Assembly: GCA_027577595.1 (NCBI GenBank)
Contig: JANBRJ010000066.1
Span: 1-64,000, forward strand
Origin: Coemansia sp. RSA 487
Lineage: Eukaryota > Kickxellomycota > Kickxellomycetes > Kickxellales > Kickxellaceae
DNA length: 64,000 nt
Direction of reading: 5' to 3'
Below, one piece after another: positions 1-8,327 of the stretch; positions within the stretch are counted from its first letter, which is position 1, and each line of letters begins with the position of its first letter. The notes beneath the pieces are model-generated. The model saw nothing but the letters and a program-made list of their open reading frames with translations, made no database searches and was not told the origin of the DNA. The translations under genes and the position numbers were made by a program.

Positions 1-1
1 A

Positions 2-310
2 GAAGTCCTCTGCCACGGCCTCCTTAAGTGCACCAACGAACTATGTATGGGGCCCGTGGAAGTGGATGGTGTTTTGGCTCCTCGTTCTCGCATGTACAAC
101 CGAGATCTCGCCGCCGTTCTCAACTTCAGGCATATTTTCCATGGCCTTCGCGATCACGGTGAGACTCCAGAGCGCTTCTGTCGCAGTCAGCCTTTTGCCA
201 TTGCCACCACTGACGAACAGCAGCCCAAGAAGAAAAGGAAGACGGCGAGGACGAAAAAAATAACAACCACCACGACATTCAGCTACGGTTATAGCCGCGG
301 CAAATCCTAG
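2..310 (+). CDS. C-terminal end of a Fanzor-type (eukaryotic TnpB-like) RNA-guided nuclease, 5' part outside window
   Basis: An open frame runs from the window edge to a TAG at 308-310 without a stop. It encodes a cysteine knuckle (KCTNELC, Cys at 29-31 and 44-46, another Cys at 11-13), then RMYNRDLAAVLNFRHI, then GETPERFCRS. This order matches the end of the RuvC domain in TnpB/Fanzor proteins: a zinc ribbon, then the NRD-x-x-A-x-x-N helix that supplies the last catalytic Asp (codon 114-116). The tail carries PKKKRK at 224-241, a classical nuclear localisation signal, as expected for a protein acting in the nucleus. Family knowledge: Fanzors are guided by an omega RNA encoded at the 3' end of their gene or transposon. 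The rest of RuvC and the N-terminus lie upstream, so activity cannot be judged. No terminal repeat could be assigned downstream. The identification rests on about 60 residues. Confidence 0.72.
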   Translation, partial: EVLCHGLLKCTNELCMGPVEVDGVLAPRSRMYNRDLAAVLNFRHIFHGLRDHGETPERFCRSQPFAIATTDEQQPKKKRKTARTKKITTTTTFSYGYSRGKS

Positions 311-470
311 TTCTAGGACAGGATGCAGTCCCTTTTGCAGGTAGGTGCTCGAATGAGAGCTGAAGAGATAAACATCTGTGACTGTTTTTTTTTTGGCAAT
401 GGCACTAATCATTTTGTGTTTTCTCTTGTGTTTTCCTGTTTTGCACTGACCCATATGCTACGCCAACCAA

Positions 471-584
471 CGCAAACGACTTGCCACGCCTGCGCAAACG
501 ACCTTTTCTTGGAACGCAGAATGCATTACTGCCACCGCAAACCTTTCACCATTCGACGCATATACATTTTTCTCATTCGACGCA
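471..584 (+). repeat. Paired short direct repeats upstream of the PIN-like gene
   Basis: Two short words are each repeated: CGCAAACGAC at 471-480 and 493-502, and CATTCGACGCA at 550-560 and 574-584. They lie within 140 bp upstream of the start codon at 607, so they may be duplicated promoter elements or simply local slippage. No known factor is assigned. Confidence 0.35.
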
Positions 585-606
585 ACTAGCTTTGCAAAAC
601 ACTGCA

Positions 607-2084
607 ATGGGCTTGCTAAACTACATGGTCATTTCGACCCAGGCGCTGTCGTCGATATTCTTTATCGGCGCAACCGGATACTTTTCAAAGTTGGGAGCCA
701 GTGAGCTACAGGTAAGGCATTAGATTCTCCAAACCGCTCTGCAGACAGACAGGGAATACTGGAAGCAATACTACACATCAACAGATCTGCAGGGCTAACG
801 AAAGGCAAAATGTTTAACCATCGCTTTCCCTTTTAGATGCTGGCGCGGATCAACGTCTCGGTGTTCACGCCTGCGCTTCTTTTTTCAAAGATCTCCAAGT
901 CGCTAGACAGCGAAATGCTCTACGATCTCTGGTTCGTACCGATCCTATATTTGATCCTAGGATCAGCCGGGCTGGAGTGGACACGCTTAGGCGGTCGCGC
1001 TCTGGGGCTCACTGATGCATTCCGCCGGCTGTGTTCGGTGGCTGTCTACTTTTCGAATGTCAACACGATCATGATTCCGATCATCGAAGGCATTGCGGCC
1101 AGCCCCGACTCGCGATTCCTGTTGCGCGACAAGAACGACACGCCGCAAAGGATGGCTGACCGAGCAATTGCCTACGGCATGATCATCGGCATAATGAACA
1201 ATCTGCTGAGATGGAGCGTCGGCGTCGCAATAATGTCGCCGCCAAAACGCAATAGTAGTCACGTAGATACAAGCAGCAACGCTAGAATTGTCCCAACAGC
1301 AGTTGACTCTAGTGAATCGCTGACTACGCTAAGCTCACACCCACACACAACGCCATATTCCGAGGGAACTGCCCACAATCTGCGGCCGTCCTGCGACGAG
1401 CAGACGTGTTTGCTTGTTGGCGACGCTGTTCAAGCTGAGTCTGGTATCGCAGTTGCCGCCAGCCGGCAAGCCGTGCTTACTCGCATATGGAATGTCGTGC
1501 AGCCGTGCTTGACGCCGCCACTGTGCGCTGTTGTTGTGGCCCTGCTGGTTGTCCTTGCGCCGCCGCTGCAGGAGGCGCTCCTGCGTCAGGGATCGTACGC
1601 GTATTGTCTGTGGACGGCCATCGATATGTGTGGACAGGCGTGCATCCCCGCAACGCTGCTTGCGCTTGGTGCGCAGCTGGCGATAAAACGTAAACCTAGA
1701 TCACAGAGCAGCGACGACACGTCCAGCATCGAAGAGGAACACCACGTCTCTGAAAAGGAGCAGAACAGGGGGATCATGCTGGTAGTGCTGGGCCGTTTTG
1801 CCGTTGTGCCAGCATGCTGCTGTGGTATTCTTTTCGCAATACACAGCTTCGCGCCCTGGCTGGTGCCGCTGCTGCGAACGGATCCGATGCTGTTCCTCAC
1901 ACTGGCGATTGTTTCTGCCACGCCGCCAGCTATCAACCTCCTCACCGTGGCACAGAGCCTGAAGATGTATGAGGGCGAGTCAGCCAGGATTCTGTCGTAC
2001 TCGTACGTCGTTGGGATGCTAGTGCTGTCCGTTGAAGTGTCAGTGTTTTTGTATCTGGCGTCGCTGTTGAGCAGCAACACGTAG
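607..2084 (+). CDS. PIN-like (auxin efflux carrier family, Mem_trans) membrane transporter
   Basis: Two exons, 607-711 and 837-2084, joined across a 125 nt intron (donor GTAAGG at 712, acceptor TTTTAG ending at 836) in phase 0, give 450 residues. The join restores the conserved family start: a helix (SSIFFIGATGYF) followed by LARINVSVFTPALLFSKI. The family signature PALLFSKI, a helix-rich first half, a hydrophilic loop at roughly residues 175-250 rich in Ser/Thr, and about five C-terminal helices match fungal ECM3/YNL095C-type PIN-like carriers, thought to sit in the ER or plasma membrane. The substrate is unknown in fungi. ATG 607 was chosen because it is the first ATG of exon 1 and begins the first helix. 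The SATPPAINL motif near the end is typical of the family's last repeat. Confidence 0.87.
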
Positions 2085-2438: not shown

Positions 2439-2447
2439 TTGTGGGAA

Positions 2448-5400
2448 ATGGAGTGGCTAAACACAGCCATTTGGAACCTGTGCATCTCGCTGCTTCCGCA
2501 TCGCAACACACGCGCCCTCTTGGTCCCTCTTCTATGCGTCGCGCTCCTTGCTCCTCTTGCTGCTTCGACAGCAGCCACAGCCATGGGCGCCAACACACCC
2601 GTGCCCTCGATAGCAACAGCAACGCCAGCGTTTGACGGGTTAGCTGCTGGCGATGCTTTGGGAGGAGGGTTGGTTGTCTCTATGACTTTAGCGCCAACCA
2701 CAAGCATTGACCATCCCTCAGAAGTTATTGTAGATAGCATGTTAGAACTTTCGCAGCAAGCACAATCGAGAGGCGGCGGCCAGGTGCCCACAGCTTCTCA
2801 GTCGTTTCTTGAAGCGCCGACGTACACAGAGTGCCACCATAACTCTGACGATGCAGACTCGTTTTGCATGGCATACGGTGGCCTTGAATACCCTTTTATA
2901 GACGCTAGGGCGCTTAAAAAGCCTGCAGGTGCAGGGTCTGCTCACAGTGTCTTAGGTTCTGGTGCTGCAGAGCACAACGGCAGGTTTGAACCTCGGCACG
3001 ATACCAATGTTCGGCGACAAAAGATATCCAAGCGGCTTCCGCGCCAAAAGCAAAAAGAACGAGCGCAGAACCAGGGCGTCGTTATTCTCAACAAGGAGAG
3101 CAATGGAATAGTGCCGCGCAAGTTCACAATCCCCGAACCATCAGTCGTGGCGGACGCTGCGGATAACCCTATTGAGATGCTCCCTGCAAAGCCGTACACG
3201 GCAGCGACTTCGGAAAGTATGCTTCTTAAACGCAGCATGCTAGAGCGCTCTGGTGTTTCGCTCGTAGATACTATGGTTGTGGTGACTGTAGATGGCAGTA
3301 TGTACGGAGTGAGTCGCTATGACGGGTCTATCGTCTGGAGCCGCCCCAGTTTGCTTGATTTGGCGGCTGAGCACAATTCAAAGCACTCGTTCCCAGTAGG
3401 CATGGTCTGGACAAAGCAAAGGGTGGATAGGTCGCTTGTTGATGTTCCATTGTCCGAACGAACATGCCAGAAAACAGACAATACCAACAGTGCTCGAGTC
3501 TCCATAGACCCTAGTATTGACCTAGGGGATGGTGTGGCTATTGGTGATTATGATGACTACAACAATAGCGATGACGACGGCGAGGAGGAGTGGCTTCTGG
3601 AACAAGGTATCGACTGGCGATCTGATCCGCAGGTTCTTGAGAATCAGCGCCAGCGGCGGCGCGAATGGCTAGCTCAGCACAGGAATAATGGCGTTGGGAG
3701 GCCCACAGAATCATATTCAAAGGCAGTTGTAGATGAGGTTCCAGAGGCAATCTATATCGCAGAGCCAGGCAACGACGGTGCGTTATACATATATAGCACT
3801 GAATTCGGCCATAAGAAGCTTCCGTTGACGATAAAAGATTTGACAGATCTGTCGCCAGTTCAGATGCGCGGGGTTTTGTACACAGGAAACAAGGAAGCAC
3901 GCTTTTCTGCAATCGATTTGAACACGGGCAGGCTGCTCAAATCCTATGGCGATGAGCACGAACACAGCAGTAGCAGTAGCAGAAGCAGCAGCAACAGTGC
4001 TTATCATACAAACAAGCGCTTCAGTGGAAAGCGAAAGCCCATCCGGCTGCTATTGGGTGAAAAGCTTAACCGGGTGCGAATCTTCCCTGACACGGACAGC
4101 AACGCTGCTGGGGTTCGCGGTAGCGATGTGCCACAATGGGAGCTTTATCACCGGTCCATTCACGCGCCTACGCTTGACCCAGAAATCGATGATATCCTTA
4201 CGGAGCTAAGTGACGCTATCGAAGCTCTGGGCTCTGCCTCTGCGCATAACGACAACGACAGTGGTGATAGCACGATCATTTCGGCATCCCGTGGCCCAAC
4301 CAAATTTGTCATGACCCATGATGGCGGGTTTGTCATGGTTGAGGCAGCGACTGGGATCCCGCTCTGGGCGCAGGAGTTTGACTCGCCTGTTGTCAGTGTC
4401 TTTGATGTGTTTGGAATTTCCACCCCAGACCCGGACTATGGCGGATCTGATGAAAAAGACAGCAATGCGCATGTGGAGTATGTGGCGCGCAAGCGCGACC
4501 TCAGTCCAGCAGCCCAACAGTTGCGCTACCGACGCTGGAGGCAGCTCCATGCACTGGACGACCAGGTGCGGTTTTACGAACAGTTTTCATCTGGGCGGTC
4601 GCAGTCGCAAGGCGGCAAGTGGCGTACTGGATCCGCAGGCGGTAACATTCTTGCTGGGTCGTTCTGGGAGCGCTCGGGTAAAACAGCGTCCTCCATCCCA
4701 CAGATTGCGTACATTGGCAAGCTCCAGGACACTCTGTACACTATGACATTCGATGAGTTTCCGCTAATAGACCACGCGTCGTTAACGTCATCTCTTCTTT
4801 TAGCTCTGGCCCAAGCCAAGCGCAACCAGCAACGATATCCCGAACTTCAGCACGCAGACTGGTGGGACCGCTGGAACTTCCTGACCCATGACGCAACCGT
4901 ACTCCGTGTGCTTCAGGAAGCCCGGATATGGTGGGTCGGTACAGCTGCGTCTGAGAGTGGGTTGGTTCCCGAGAACAGCTTTGAAAAGCTCCTGGACATG
5001 ATTAGGCTGCACCAAGAAGCCAATAATGACCAGGCACCAGACACAGGGGCTACTGATCGGCTGATGTGCGACGCTAAGAACGACGACCGCTGTCACTACG
5101 GTGCGCTTATTGGAATCCACCCGGTTGAGCCGTTGACAGCGCATGGCCTTCCTGCACTCGAAGGCGCGCCGCTACACAAGCTTGGGCTACCGTCGTCGAA
5201 TGAGGGAGTGCCAGTAGACGACCACATGAATGCAGGAGCGATCGGCCGCGAGCATGCCGAGAATGACAATGACTATGACAACCACAACACAAGATTGGAC
5301 CATGGCAGAAACCTGCGCCTGCCCTGGGATGACGAGGAGCTGCACCCGTCGTCGGCTGACGGCTCTAGCACAACCGCACAGTCCCGAGAAGATATCGAGG

Positions 5401-8327
5401 ACTGGCCGTGGTGGAGGTATGTCGGTCACTATGCAACACGCCTAGCAGCGCTCATCGGGTACGTGGTAACCATTGCAGTACTACTGGTGTTTGCAGGCGC
5501 AATGTACTTGCTTAGGCCGCGCAACAAGCGGAGACCGCGCATGTGGGTCGACGCAGCAGGCGATGACACAAATGCACCGGGCCGGCGTGCGCGGCTGCGG
5601 ACCTCATGGGCGCTGATGTACAGAATGTGGGCAACGCTGAAGGAGGAGTGGCAAATGGCTCTCGAAGAGGCGTGGCGGAATCCGAATGCCGCTGCGGTGC
5701 TACGACGCACAGGCGTTCCACACAGATCGGGGCTGCGCAAGGAAGATGAAGACAGAGATAGCAGCAGTGAAGAGGGCAGCGCCAGTAGTAGTAGCGTCCT
5801 TGGCAGAAGCAGCAGCTCTAGTAGTCTCATGCTACATCAGCAAAATGGCGACGCTTTTGGGCCAGACATTAACAACGGCGGTGGCGGCGCTGAGAGCAAC
5901 CGCAGCAGCCGTCAGCATAGCCTGTCGCGCCGCGGATCCGCATCGGTATCGCCAGCGTCATTGGGTATTTTTGGACGTGATGACAGCGAGCCATCGTCGC
6001 TGGAACGGCTGTCTTCAGGGATGATAACACCGCGGCGGAATTCCACTGGAACGCTCTCGATGACGCCGATAAAGAGAGCATCAGCCGAAGGCGACAGTAT
6101 CGAGCGGATGCAGCAAGCATCATTGTTTCGTAGCAACCAAGGAACACAACAGCAGCAGCAACAGGTGCGTCTAGGCGCGATCAGCATGTCTGACCAAGTG
6201 CTTGGGTATGGCAGCCACGGGACCGTTGTGTATCGCGGCGAGTTTCAGGGGCGAGCAGTAGCAGTGAAGCGGCTGCTTTTAGACTTTTACGATGTTGCGG
6301 ACCATGAAGTGCAAGTGCTTCAGGAGAGCGATACACATCCTAACGTGATCCGGTACTTTTGCACCGAGCGACACGATCACTTCATGTACATTGCGCTGGA
6401 ACTCTGTTGCGGATCCCTGGCAGATGCGATTATGCGCTCACCCAAGGCGCGGCTCGCCAACCAGCTGCTCTCTGCAATCCCAAAGAAAACCGCCTTGTAT
6501 CAGCTGGCTCGTGGCCTACACCACTTGCACGCGCTTAAGCTGGTCCACCGCGACATCAAGCCGCAAAACATCCTTATAGCGCCGCCGCCGCACCGACGCC
6601 GCCGTCGCCGGGCTCCAAGTATGCAGCCTAACGGCGATGGTGATGCTGATAGTGAGCTTACATTTGAAGATTCCAACATTGTGGCTGGTGGCGTGCCGCG
6701 TGTCCTGATAAGCGACTTTGGGCTGTCAAGGATTCTCGACGACGATGAGAGCTCGTTTGCAAACACTTTTACGATGCATGGCATGGCGGCGTTTGGCGGC
6801 GGTGGATCGAACGGACCAATGCCTGGTGGTATGCCTGCAGGAATGATTGGTGGCATCGGTGGTGGCACTGTTGGTTGGCGCGCCCCCGAGTGCTTTGACT
6901 CCCCGGATACACGTGCTGCTCCGGGATCGGTGGTCGGTGCGTCTGTCAGTACTGAGCACAACGACGAGCCGCCGTCGTGGCCCTCACTGCGTGGTGAACC
7001 GTCCAGAGTGGTAGACGAGCCACCTAGTCCCTATGTCAGTCGCGGAACTCGCTCGCGTCTGCGCAACCTGGCTATGGCTCAGATTGGCCAGAATCCTGGT
7101 ATGAGTGCCGCCTCTGGCCAAGAAGAGCCGCAGCAGCAACGGCAGCAGCAACGGCAGCAGATAGTAGATTGCGATGATCCAGATAGCATAGGAACCAGCA
7201 TAACCAGCACAACAGACCGGGCGGGGTCGTCGATACCGTTTGCAAACAGCAGCGGTGCACGCAGGCGGATGACGCGCGCAGTGGACATTTTCTCGATGGG
7301 ATGTGTATTCTACTACGTTTTGATGGACGGCGACCATCCATTTGGCGACCGTCTGAGCCGTGAGCAACGCATCCTGGCTGGCACGCCCGACCTGCGGACG
7401 CTAGAGACCAGTAGCAACAGCATTCCGTCGGCTGTCGAGGCTGTCGACCTCATTGCTCATATGGTAGCACGCCAAGAGCGCGATCGCCCGAGCGCTGCTA
7501 GCGTCCTTGTACACCCGTACTTTTGGGACGCCACGCAGCGGCTGAACTTTCTGCAGGACGTGTCGGATTGCCTGGAAGCCGAGGCGAGACTGATCAAGGC
7601 TGCCCGCGAGGACGTACCAGAGCCACCGCCTGCTAAGAAGACCAAAGGCGCAAAGAAGAAGGGCGGTGGAGGGCAATCGACAGGTTCAGGCGCCGGAGGC
7701 AACGCTGGAGGAGGCGTAGAGAAGGAAGTGGCAGCGGGAGGTGGCGGATCATCGTCGCATGTGATGTCCAAAGAGTCGATCGAGGATATCATTGCAAAGC
7801 TGCCGTCGCAGCAGGCTGCGGCTGTGCGTAGAGCTATAACCCTCCTCGATACATTCGAGGAGAACAGCGGCTTTGTCATGGAGGGGGCGCCGCCGTCAGC
7901 CGATGGGTTCCAGGTCGTCGGCATGCCGCCGCCACCAAGCAGCCATGCAGCGGCTGTCGACGCAATGGCAGCGGCCGTTGGCTCCGCAGGTAGCAGCAGC
8001 GATAGAGACAAGGACCAGCGGCCGCGCAGGATTGCCTGGGACCGCAGGCTTGATCCGCATCTTCGCCGTGATCTAAGCAAATTCCGCAAGTACGATAGCA
8101 CCAGACTGCGGGACCTGCTGCGCACCATCCGTAACAAGAAGAACCACTACCAGGACATGCCGATAACGCTACGTGACACGCTTGGCGACATACCTGACGG
8201 CTATCTGCATTACTTTGAGTCCCGCTTCCCTTACTTGCTGCTGCATTGCTACTATTTTGTGCTTGAGGATGATAGTCTGCGCACAGCGACTGTCTTTAAA
8301 CCGTACTTCCGGCCACCAGCACTCTAG
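2448..8327 (+). CDS. IRE1: IRE1 unfolded-protein-response sensor: ER kinase/endoribonuclease
   Basis: Single uninterrupted frame of 1959 residues from the first ATG (the frame extends three codons upstream only through a TTG). A hydrophobic signal (about residues 22-40) precedes an ER-luminal sensor with PQQ-like strands (VTVDGSMYGVSRYDGSIVW). A transmembrane helix lies at about 999-1021, followed by a basic stop-transfer stretch. The kinase shows GYGSHGTVVYRG, VAVK (K1274), HRDIKPQN (D1369), DFG (D1423), WRAPE and DIFSMGCVFYY. The KEN RNase domain starts near 1862 and has LLRTIRNKKNH with R1895, N1896 and H1900 at the positions of the catalytic RNase residues. Family role: it senses misfolded protein in the ER and splices a HAC1/XBP1-type mRNA. 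It is much longer than yeast Ire1 (about 1115). The extra length lies in acidic and Ser-rich luminal and juxtamembrane stretches, in kinase loops, and in about 120 residues of Lys/Gly-rich sequence between kinase and KEN. Confidence 0.97.
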   Translation: MEWLNTAIWNLCISLLPHRNTRALLVPLLCVALLAPLAASTAATAMGANTPVPSIATATPAFDGLAAGDALGGGLVVSMTLAPTTSIDHPSEVIVDSMLELSQQAQSRGGGQVPTASQSFLEAPTYTECHHNSDDADSFCMAYGGLEYPFIDARALKKPAGAGSAHSVLGSGAAEHNGRFEPRHDTNVRRQKISKRLPRQKQKERAQNQGVVILNKESNGIVPRKFTIPEPSVVADAADNPIEMLPAKPYTAATSESMLLKRSMLERSGVSLVDTMVVVTVDGSMYGVSRYDGSIVWSRPSLLDLAAEHNSKHSFPVGMVWTKQRVDRSLVDVPLSERTCQKTDNTNSARVSIDPSIDLGDGVAIGDYDDYNNSDDDGEEEWLLEQGIDWRSDPQVLENQRQRRREWLAQHRNNGVGRPTESYSKAVVDEVPEAIYIAEPGNDGALYIYSTEFGHKKLPLTIKDLTDLSPVQMRGVLYTGNKEARFSAIDLNTGRLLKSYGDEHEHSSSSSRSSSNSAYHTNKRFSGKRKPIRLLLGEKLNRVRIFPDTDSNAAGVRGSDVPQWELYHRSIHAPTLDPEIDDILTELSDAIEALGSASAHNDNDSGDSTIISASRGPTKFVMTHDGGFVMVEAATGIPLWAQEFDSPVVSVFDVFGISTPDPDYGGSDEKDSNAHVEYVARKRDLSPAAQQLRYRRWRQLHALDDQVRFYEQFSSGRSQSQGGKWRTGSAGGNILAGSFWERSGKTASSIPQIAYIGKLQDTLYTMTFDEFPLIDHASLTSSLLLALAQAKRNQQRYPELQHADWWDRWNFLTHDATVLRVLQEARIWWVGTAASESGLVPENSFEKLLDMIRLHQEANNDQAPDTGATDRLMCDAKNDDRCHYGALIGIHPVEPLTAHGLPALEGAPLHKLGLPSSNEGVPVDDHMNAGAIGREHAENDNDYDNHNTRLDHGRNLRLPWDDEELHPSSADGSSTTAQSREDIEDWPWWRYVGHYATRLAALIGYVVTIAVLLVFAGAMYLLRPRNKRRPRMWVDAAGDDTNAPGRRARLRTSWALMYRMWATLKEEWQMALEEAWRNPNAAAVLRRTGVPHRSGLRKEDEDRDSSSEEGSASSSSVLGRSSSSSSLMLHQQNGDAFGPDINNGGGGAESNRSSRQHSLSRRGSASVSPASLGIFGRDDSEPSSLERLSSGMITPRRNSTGTLSMTPIKRASAEGDSIERMQQASLFRSNQGTQQQQQQVRLGAISMSDQVLGYGSHGTVVYRGEFQGRAVAVKRLLLDFYDVADHEVQVLQESDTHPNVIRYFCTERHDHFMYIALELCCGSLADAIMRSPKARLANQLLSAIPKKTALYQLARGLHHLHALKLVHRDIKPQNILIAPPPHRRRRRRAPSMQPNGDGDADSELTFEDSNIVAGGVPRVLISDFGLSRILDDDESSFANTFTMHGMAAFGGGGSNGPMPGGMPAGMIGGIGGGTVGWRAPECFDSPDTRAAPGSVVGASVSTEHNDEPPSWPSLRGEPSRVVDEPPSPYVSRGTRSRLRNLAMAQIGQNPGMSAASGQEEPQQQRQQQRQQIVDCDDPDSIGTSITSTTDRAGSSIPFANSSGARRRMTRAVDIFSMGCVFYYVLMDGDHPFGDRLSREQRILAGTPDLRTLETSSNSIPSAVEAVDLIAHMVARQERDRPSAASVLVHPYFWDATQRLNFLQDVSDCLEAEARLIKAAREDVPEPPPAKKTKGAKKKGGGGQSTGSGAGGNAGGGVEKEVAAGGGGSSSHVMSKESIEDIIAKLPSQQAAAVRRAITLLDTFEENSGFVMEGAPPSADGFQVVGMPPPPSSHAAAVDAMAAAVGSAGSSSDRDKDQRPRRIAWDRRLDPHLRRDLSKFRKYDSTRLRDLLRTIRNKKNHYQDMPITLRDTLGDIPDGYLHYFESRFPYLLLHCYYFVLEDDSLRTATVFKPYFRPPAL

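Follow-up and report, generated by a model that had tools for sequence, protein, structure and literature searches.

What does the reading frame at the left edge of this sequence belong to, and is it a gene at all? The window, i.e. the whole stretch of 64,000 nucleotides from Coemansia sp. RSA 487 analyzed here, starts at base 1 of contig C66 in a genome of 17.8 Mb and 184 contigs. According to the ORF listing, its first frame is open from the contig edge. Fanzors are eukaryotic relatives of the CRISPR enzymes that are carried by jumping genes; they are programmable nucleases. The initial annotation had read the frame as the RuvC C-terminus of such a Fanzor/TnpB-type protein. With a probability of about 85% for the whole explanation, its mechanism included, we consider the feature to be the 3′ terminal part of a single member of a Fanzor1 transposon family that is present in many copies in this Coemansia genome.

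The reading frame at the contig edge

A phmmer search of the PDB set with the 102-residue fragment retrieved the C-terminus of Parasitella parasitica Fanzor1 (PDB 9cf0) with E=1.3e-8 and Spizellomyces punctatus Fanzor1 with E=0.015. Searched with the fragment, its own genome gave at least 146 matching stretches at E≤1e-3, with 150 of the 214 first-look candidates scored, and the same stretch in long Fanzor1 paralogues of this genome is up to 93% identical to it. The motifs KCTNELC, NRDLAAVLN and GETPERFCRS are all present in the window frame. An unrelated zinc-binding protein could resemble the end of TnpB by chance, and a Pfam scan of the fragment gave no match over cut-off, which would suit such a protein. 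The matches to solved Fanzor1 proteins and the high identity to the paralogues rule this reading out for practical purposes; its probability is vanishingly small.

Because the contig starts at window base 1, the Fanzor1 C-terminal piece is cut. As the window copy begins so far into the protein (Table 1), RuvC-I and RuvC-II are not visible in it; what it does show is the tail, followed by the RNA candidate and the right terminal inverted repeat (TIR). The proposed zinc knuckle is accordingly half represented: its second Cys pair is encoded in the window (codons 29–31 and 44–46), but the first pair, CPNC, lies upstream of the contig start. The last catalytic Asp is present as predicted, although its codon is 104–106 and not 114–116, which is not in frame. 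The description of the 3′ coding end as intact could not be maintained. In sister copies a TAA stop follows right after ...ART-N/K-K, and one extra base in the stretch with the 7-A run moves the stop of the window frame from 261–263 to a TAG at 308–310, 47 bases (16 codons) further on. Nor does the treatment of the window copy as a gene stand, since among the related copies there are minis with an internal deletion in which this tail alone is left. The basic run close to the end is presumably nuclear-localization-like.

Table 1. Features at the left end of the window
Feature	Position	Strand	Remarks
Right-hand part of the Fanzor1-bearing TIR element	1..606	+	Matches the right-hand portion of the complete 6442-bp copy
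Fanzor1 C-terminal coding end	2..310	+	102 aa, 5′ side open; first residue is 642 of 733 in P0001 numbering
Second Cys pair of the C4 zinc finger, in KCTNELC	29..46	+	C651 and C656 of P0001
Third catalytic Asp of RuvC (NRD)	104..106	+	D676 of P0001, D606 of SpuFz1
PKKKRK basic run	224..241	+	From the sequence; also in P0001 at 716
7-A run	254..260	+	Stretch one base longer than in L043; stop codon shifted
Candidate guide (omega) RNA region	264..340	+	Directly after the usual stop; ends CCTTTTGCAG
Right TIR, ~108–114 bp	493..606	+	Ends ...GCAAAACACTGCA; reverse complement forms the left TIR
Exon 1, host transporter gene (PF03547)	607..711	+	Start codon directly abuts the element
Exon 2, same PF03547 transporter gene	837..2084	+	PF03547 match of the joined exons starts at residue 12

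The full-length sisters supply what the window lacks. A stop-free sister (L041, C19) matched P. parasitica Fanzor1 (PpFz1) with E=2.7e-103, S. punctatus Fanzor1 (SpuFz1) with 1.4e-43 and GtFz1 weakly (0.0021), so that the proposed comparison of the full protein with Fanzors, carried out here on a paralogue, came out in favor of the call. The catalytic residues of SpuFz1 are D383, E541 and D606 (PMC11423790). With the SpuFz1 residue offset derived by hand, these align with D428, E608 and D676 of the full-length sister P0001, i.e. the Asp of DPGR, the Glu of DEF and the Asp of NRD. The expected order of RuvC Asp, Glu and Asp is thus found in full-length sisters, the window copy showing its last member. 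Among 46 homologues, the three columns are reached by 44, 26 and 23 proteins, respectively, with 0 substitutions. The published Fanzor/TnpB motif D-X(125,275)-[TS][TS]-x-x-C4-X(5,50)-RD (Bao and Jurka 2013) fits 20 of the 46, P0001 among them; the 26 that miss it include shorter or partial proteins, and the window holds the motif end only. Together with the matches to solved Fanzor1 proteins, these results bear out the assignment to a Fanzor/TnpB-type RuvC C-terminus.

The suggested check against PF07282 had a mixed outcome. There was no match in the fragment, and the long proteins were marginal, with 16.4–20.7 bits against a cut-off of 26.3 (E=4.6e-4 to 0.01) in four of the seven scanned and no match in the other three. 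However, one of nine matched genome loci exceeded the cut-off (28.4 bits). A PF07282 score over cut-off is not taken as defining for Fanzor1. The AlphaFold model of P0001 (21 rows) had a mean pLDDT of 43.6 and was unusable.

PpFz1 (PDB 9cf0–9cf3) resembles the Coemansia sister over nearly its whole length, and its C-terminus is the part matched by the window tail. The sister lacks about 100 residues that lie between the two RuvC blocks of PpFz1. PpFz1 has a cyclophilin-binding FRI domain (PMC11423790), and the additional residues are probably its site. For PpFz1 the TAM is known to be 5′-ATN. Close homologues of the full-length paralogue are annotated in Coemansia RSA 487, 1813, 986, 1646 and 1843, while the more distant ones (35–38% identity) come from further Coemansia as well as from Martensiomyces. 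In the literature covered by our search we found no description of a Fanzor in Coemansia, and the genus name is absent from the main text of three of the papers compared.

The transposable element and its ends

The complete copy of the element (L041+L059) is 6442 bp long with TIRs of ~110 bp at both ends. Between these follow a DDE_3 transposase of the Tc1/mariner type (E=3.5e-19), an antisense Ty3/gypsy-type reverse transcriptase (RVT_1, E=6.9e-32) and Fanzor1, after which comes the right TIR. A DDE transposase and TIRs, the two marks of a Tc1/mariner element, are therefore both found in this copy. Since several copies share the gypsy part, at about 83–90% identity, it was carried along with the element. 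In one further copy (L046) a weak match to a retroviral protease stayed below cut-off (E=0.0038). Elsewhere in the genome, the match to the window extends to 600–609 in 14 of 29 other places and ends earlier in the remainder.

The target duplication expected for a mariner element is TA. We counted 41 right and 19 left ends, with 2 more ends whose side was ambiguous. At the right ends the dinucleotide is CA in 27 cases, TA in 11 and another in 3; at the left ends it is TA (11), CA (7) and CG (1). This left/right difference is weaker in the full end count than in an earlier partial count. The complete copy has TA on both sides; the end dinucleotides overall do not seem to be accounted for by plain TA target duplication. 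In the seven elements with both ends, no target duplication longer than 2 bp was seen by eye.

At its right end the window copy borders a host gene. The spliced PF03547 product is the annotated protein P0047 (450 aa, 100% identity), and its start is the same in three of four relatives (P0048, P0050, P0060), the remaining one (P0053) being annotated from a later Met. A right end immediately before an ATG occurs twice among the 41, at window 606/607 and at L043, and both are host gene starts; in L043 the junction, at 2707/2708, lies directly before the start codon of a gene for a cyclophilin (PF00160, E=8.2e-14). Two of 41 right ends are too few for a rule of gene-start targeting, which we rejected. 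Downstream of the transporter, window positions 2439–8324 hold a frame of 1962 aa with protein kinase and Ribonuc_2-5A domains, which is ordinary and which we take to be IRE1-like.

Several parts of this anatomy have precedents. Mariner-type transposase, Fanzor1 and TIRs occur together in PGv-1, PUl-1 and PUl-4 (Bao and Jurka 2013, PMC3627910), and the Coemansia element is thus a further member of a known family. These three have TA target duplications (PMC3627910), whereas the Coemansia right ends mostly have CA. Spu-1, the SpuFz1 element, likewise has Fanzor1 between inverted repeats and many copies, and its ghost loci, which retain the 3′ end but no ORF, resemble the Coemansia minis (PMC10432273). 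Spu-1 is, however, only ~2.1 kb long, with 30-nt inverted repeats, and no transposase was found in it (PMC10432273), in contrast to the 6.4 kb, the ~110-bp TIRs, the DDE transposase and the captured gypsy fragment of the Coemansia element. The Mucor Fanzor1 MCi-2 has constant 3′ parts with varied 5′ parts, and the Cyanidioschyzon Fanzor1 CMe-1A has about 150 copies (PMC3627910). Unlike the Coemansia element, both are without recognizable TIRs, and a mariner transposase does not figure in what PMC3627910 says of them. Fanzor1 with a transposase in Tc/mariner elements, a family of ~150 copies and ORF-less ghosts are hence already known (PMC3627910, PMC10432273). Gypsy/Ty3 elements inserted in or near some Spu-1 loci have been interpreted as a sign of past transposition (PMC10432273). 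The main text of PMC3627910 makes no mention of a gypsy fragment between transposase and Fanzor, the word itself being absent there, and we found no description of one carried in this position in those portions of the literature that were compared.

Copies, deletions and selection

The Fanzor tail is found at 90–100 loci of family A, grouped by eye from at least 146 matches, and the central domain of the protein has 74 genome matches, which were grouped by eye into about 30 family-A loci. Among 36 tails, 19 are of the full type, i.e. they reach the Fanzor body, 7 are minis and 1 is rearranged (L028); the other 9, including the window, are cut off before the copy type becomes visible. L078 is an example of the full type and L076 one of the tails without visible type. 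In the minis, a left arm (to ~320–432) is joined to element position 5757–5812. Window base 1 corresponds to element position 5834, about 20–80 bp downstream of these junctions.

The window copy could therefore itself be an internally deleted mini that never had a Fanzor body and was moved in trans, consisting of a left arm of ~320–430 bp, the last ~100 codons, the RNA region and the right TIR. The 7 minis among the 36 copies and the closeness of their junctions to the window start speak for this reading. Yet the 19 copies of full type weigh against it and, of the five tree rows nearest to the window, L027 and L021 are full while three have no visible type, so that we hold the mini reading as tentative and somewhat less probable than its opposite. 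The tree of the tails was also considered as a classifier of full and mini copies and was discarded: it is star-like, with a median end branch of 0.07 and hardly any resolution, and gives no decision for the window copy.

Stops or frameshifts are present in many copies, and the star-like tails look as they would after an old burst. Both points would fit a Fanzor that is a passive passenger here, one that decayed while hitch-hiking in a mariner element and lacks any RNA-guided function in this genome. Against this, nine family-A loci have frames of 665–794 aa that are stop-free in the matched part. Some of the nine lack one protein end, and at least four family-A frames are complete from start to stop. 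A second Fanzor1 subfamily, B, is 37–41% identical to A and has several long open frames (L056, L057, L058); the genome as a whole has about 17 long frames of 665–816 aa, stop-free in the matched part. Pairwise dN/dS was 0.23–0.33 in all six pairs among four chosen intact family-A copies and 0.20–0.28 in all three family-B pairs. Values well under 1, for family A among these four chosen copies, indicate that the protein has been under selection while copying. A strongly structured candidate RNA is, moreover, kept at the family-B right end. On balance the passenger reading appears unlikely to us, and we prefer the explanation given at the outset. One family-B locus (C66:76898–78316) lies on the same contig as the window, beyond it, and just upstream of L057 there is another piece of a Tc1-like transposase (DDE_3, E=1.1e-6).

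Candidate guide RNAs and proposed mechanism

The family-A candidate for a guide RNA contains a nested GCC/GGC stem, a 15-bp repeat unit and a GGAC/GTCC hairpin. Pairwise conservation is 0.88–0.92 in the blocks at positions 271–350 against 0.82–0.91 in the coding end, so that the 3′ stretch is no less conserved. The alifold z-score was −3.6 to −4.4 for stretches starting at 255–275 and −1.5 for the one starting at 285. No compensatory changes were found in this candidate, and the opposite strand folds equally well (same z). In window 1–900, Rfam gave two chance matches far below cut-off and none over it. The right-TIR region (window ~457–606) was rejected as a structured RNA, as it has a 4-bp stem only and no compensatory change. 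That two copies, L029 and L046, break off exactly at window 340 is suggestive of a family-A omega-RNA ending at TTTTGCAG. At the end of the RNA candidate, window 330–346 (CCCTTTTGCAG followed by GTAGGT) resembles a 3′ splice site immediately joined to a 5′ splice site; this is kept in most of 33 aligned copies, and L029 and L046 break off there.

Family B gives the clearer picture: its 3′ stretch has 21 genome matches, 10 of which we read. The right-end stretch of about 129 nt folds with −36.2 kcal/mol in alifold, for which shuffling of the alignment columns gave z −5.4; over the entire alignment the value was −36.6 kcal/mol. The fold is closed by TGCCAG/TTGGCA pairs, with double changes in 2 of 37 pairs. 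The end reads TTGGCA in 8 of the 10, TTGGCT in L093, and is missing in L097; the flanks beyond it differ, apart from those of L056 and L092, which are alike. As far as sequence and predicted folding go, the family-B right end looks guide-RNA-like, its layout being that of an omega-RNA with the guide attached downstream.

By analogy with the family, the element would be moved by its mariner-type transposase, in cis for complete copies and in trans for minis. The Fanzor protein would bind an omega-RNA transcribed from the element's 3′ end and would be directed to a short adjacent motif together with a target matching a guide of ~15–20 nt, where its RuvC domain may cut the DNA. Repair from an occupied sister copy could then keep or restore the element, as has been proposed for TnpB.

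A further, more speculative reading concerns the deleted minis, possibly including the window copy: they might serve as guide-RNA-only satellites for the few intact Fanzor1 genes. As the minis keep the 3′ RNA region and the right TIR, these few proteins would be programmable by dozens of dispersed guides. If the scaffold ran to the end of the element, the guide of the window copy would be the first codons of the host transporter gene, whose ATG follows the element without a gap; for L043 the satellite reading would imply the same situation at the cyclophilin gene. We regard this reading as improbable. Independently of it, guides and TAMs could well be read from a small 17.8-Mb genome such as this, in which two Fanzor1 subfamilies are well populated. 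The many right ends with different flanks and the clear family-B 3′ RNA fold should be useful for guide work, and the same genome is suited to tests of what Fanzor contributes to copy maintenance.

Finally, more diverged Fanzor1-like frames occur at L055, C29:4313–5671 and C18:47111–48457, the first of them 34% identical to P0001. Judged by their divergence, these frames suggest a third Fanzor1 lineage.
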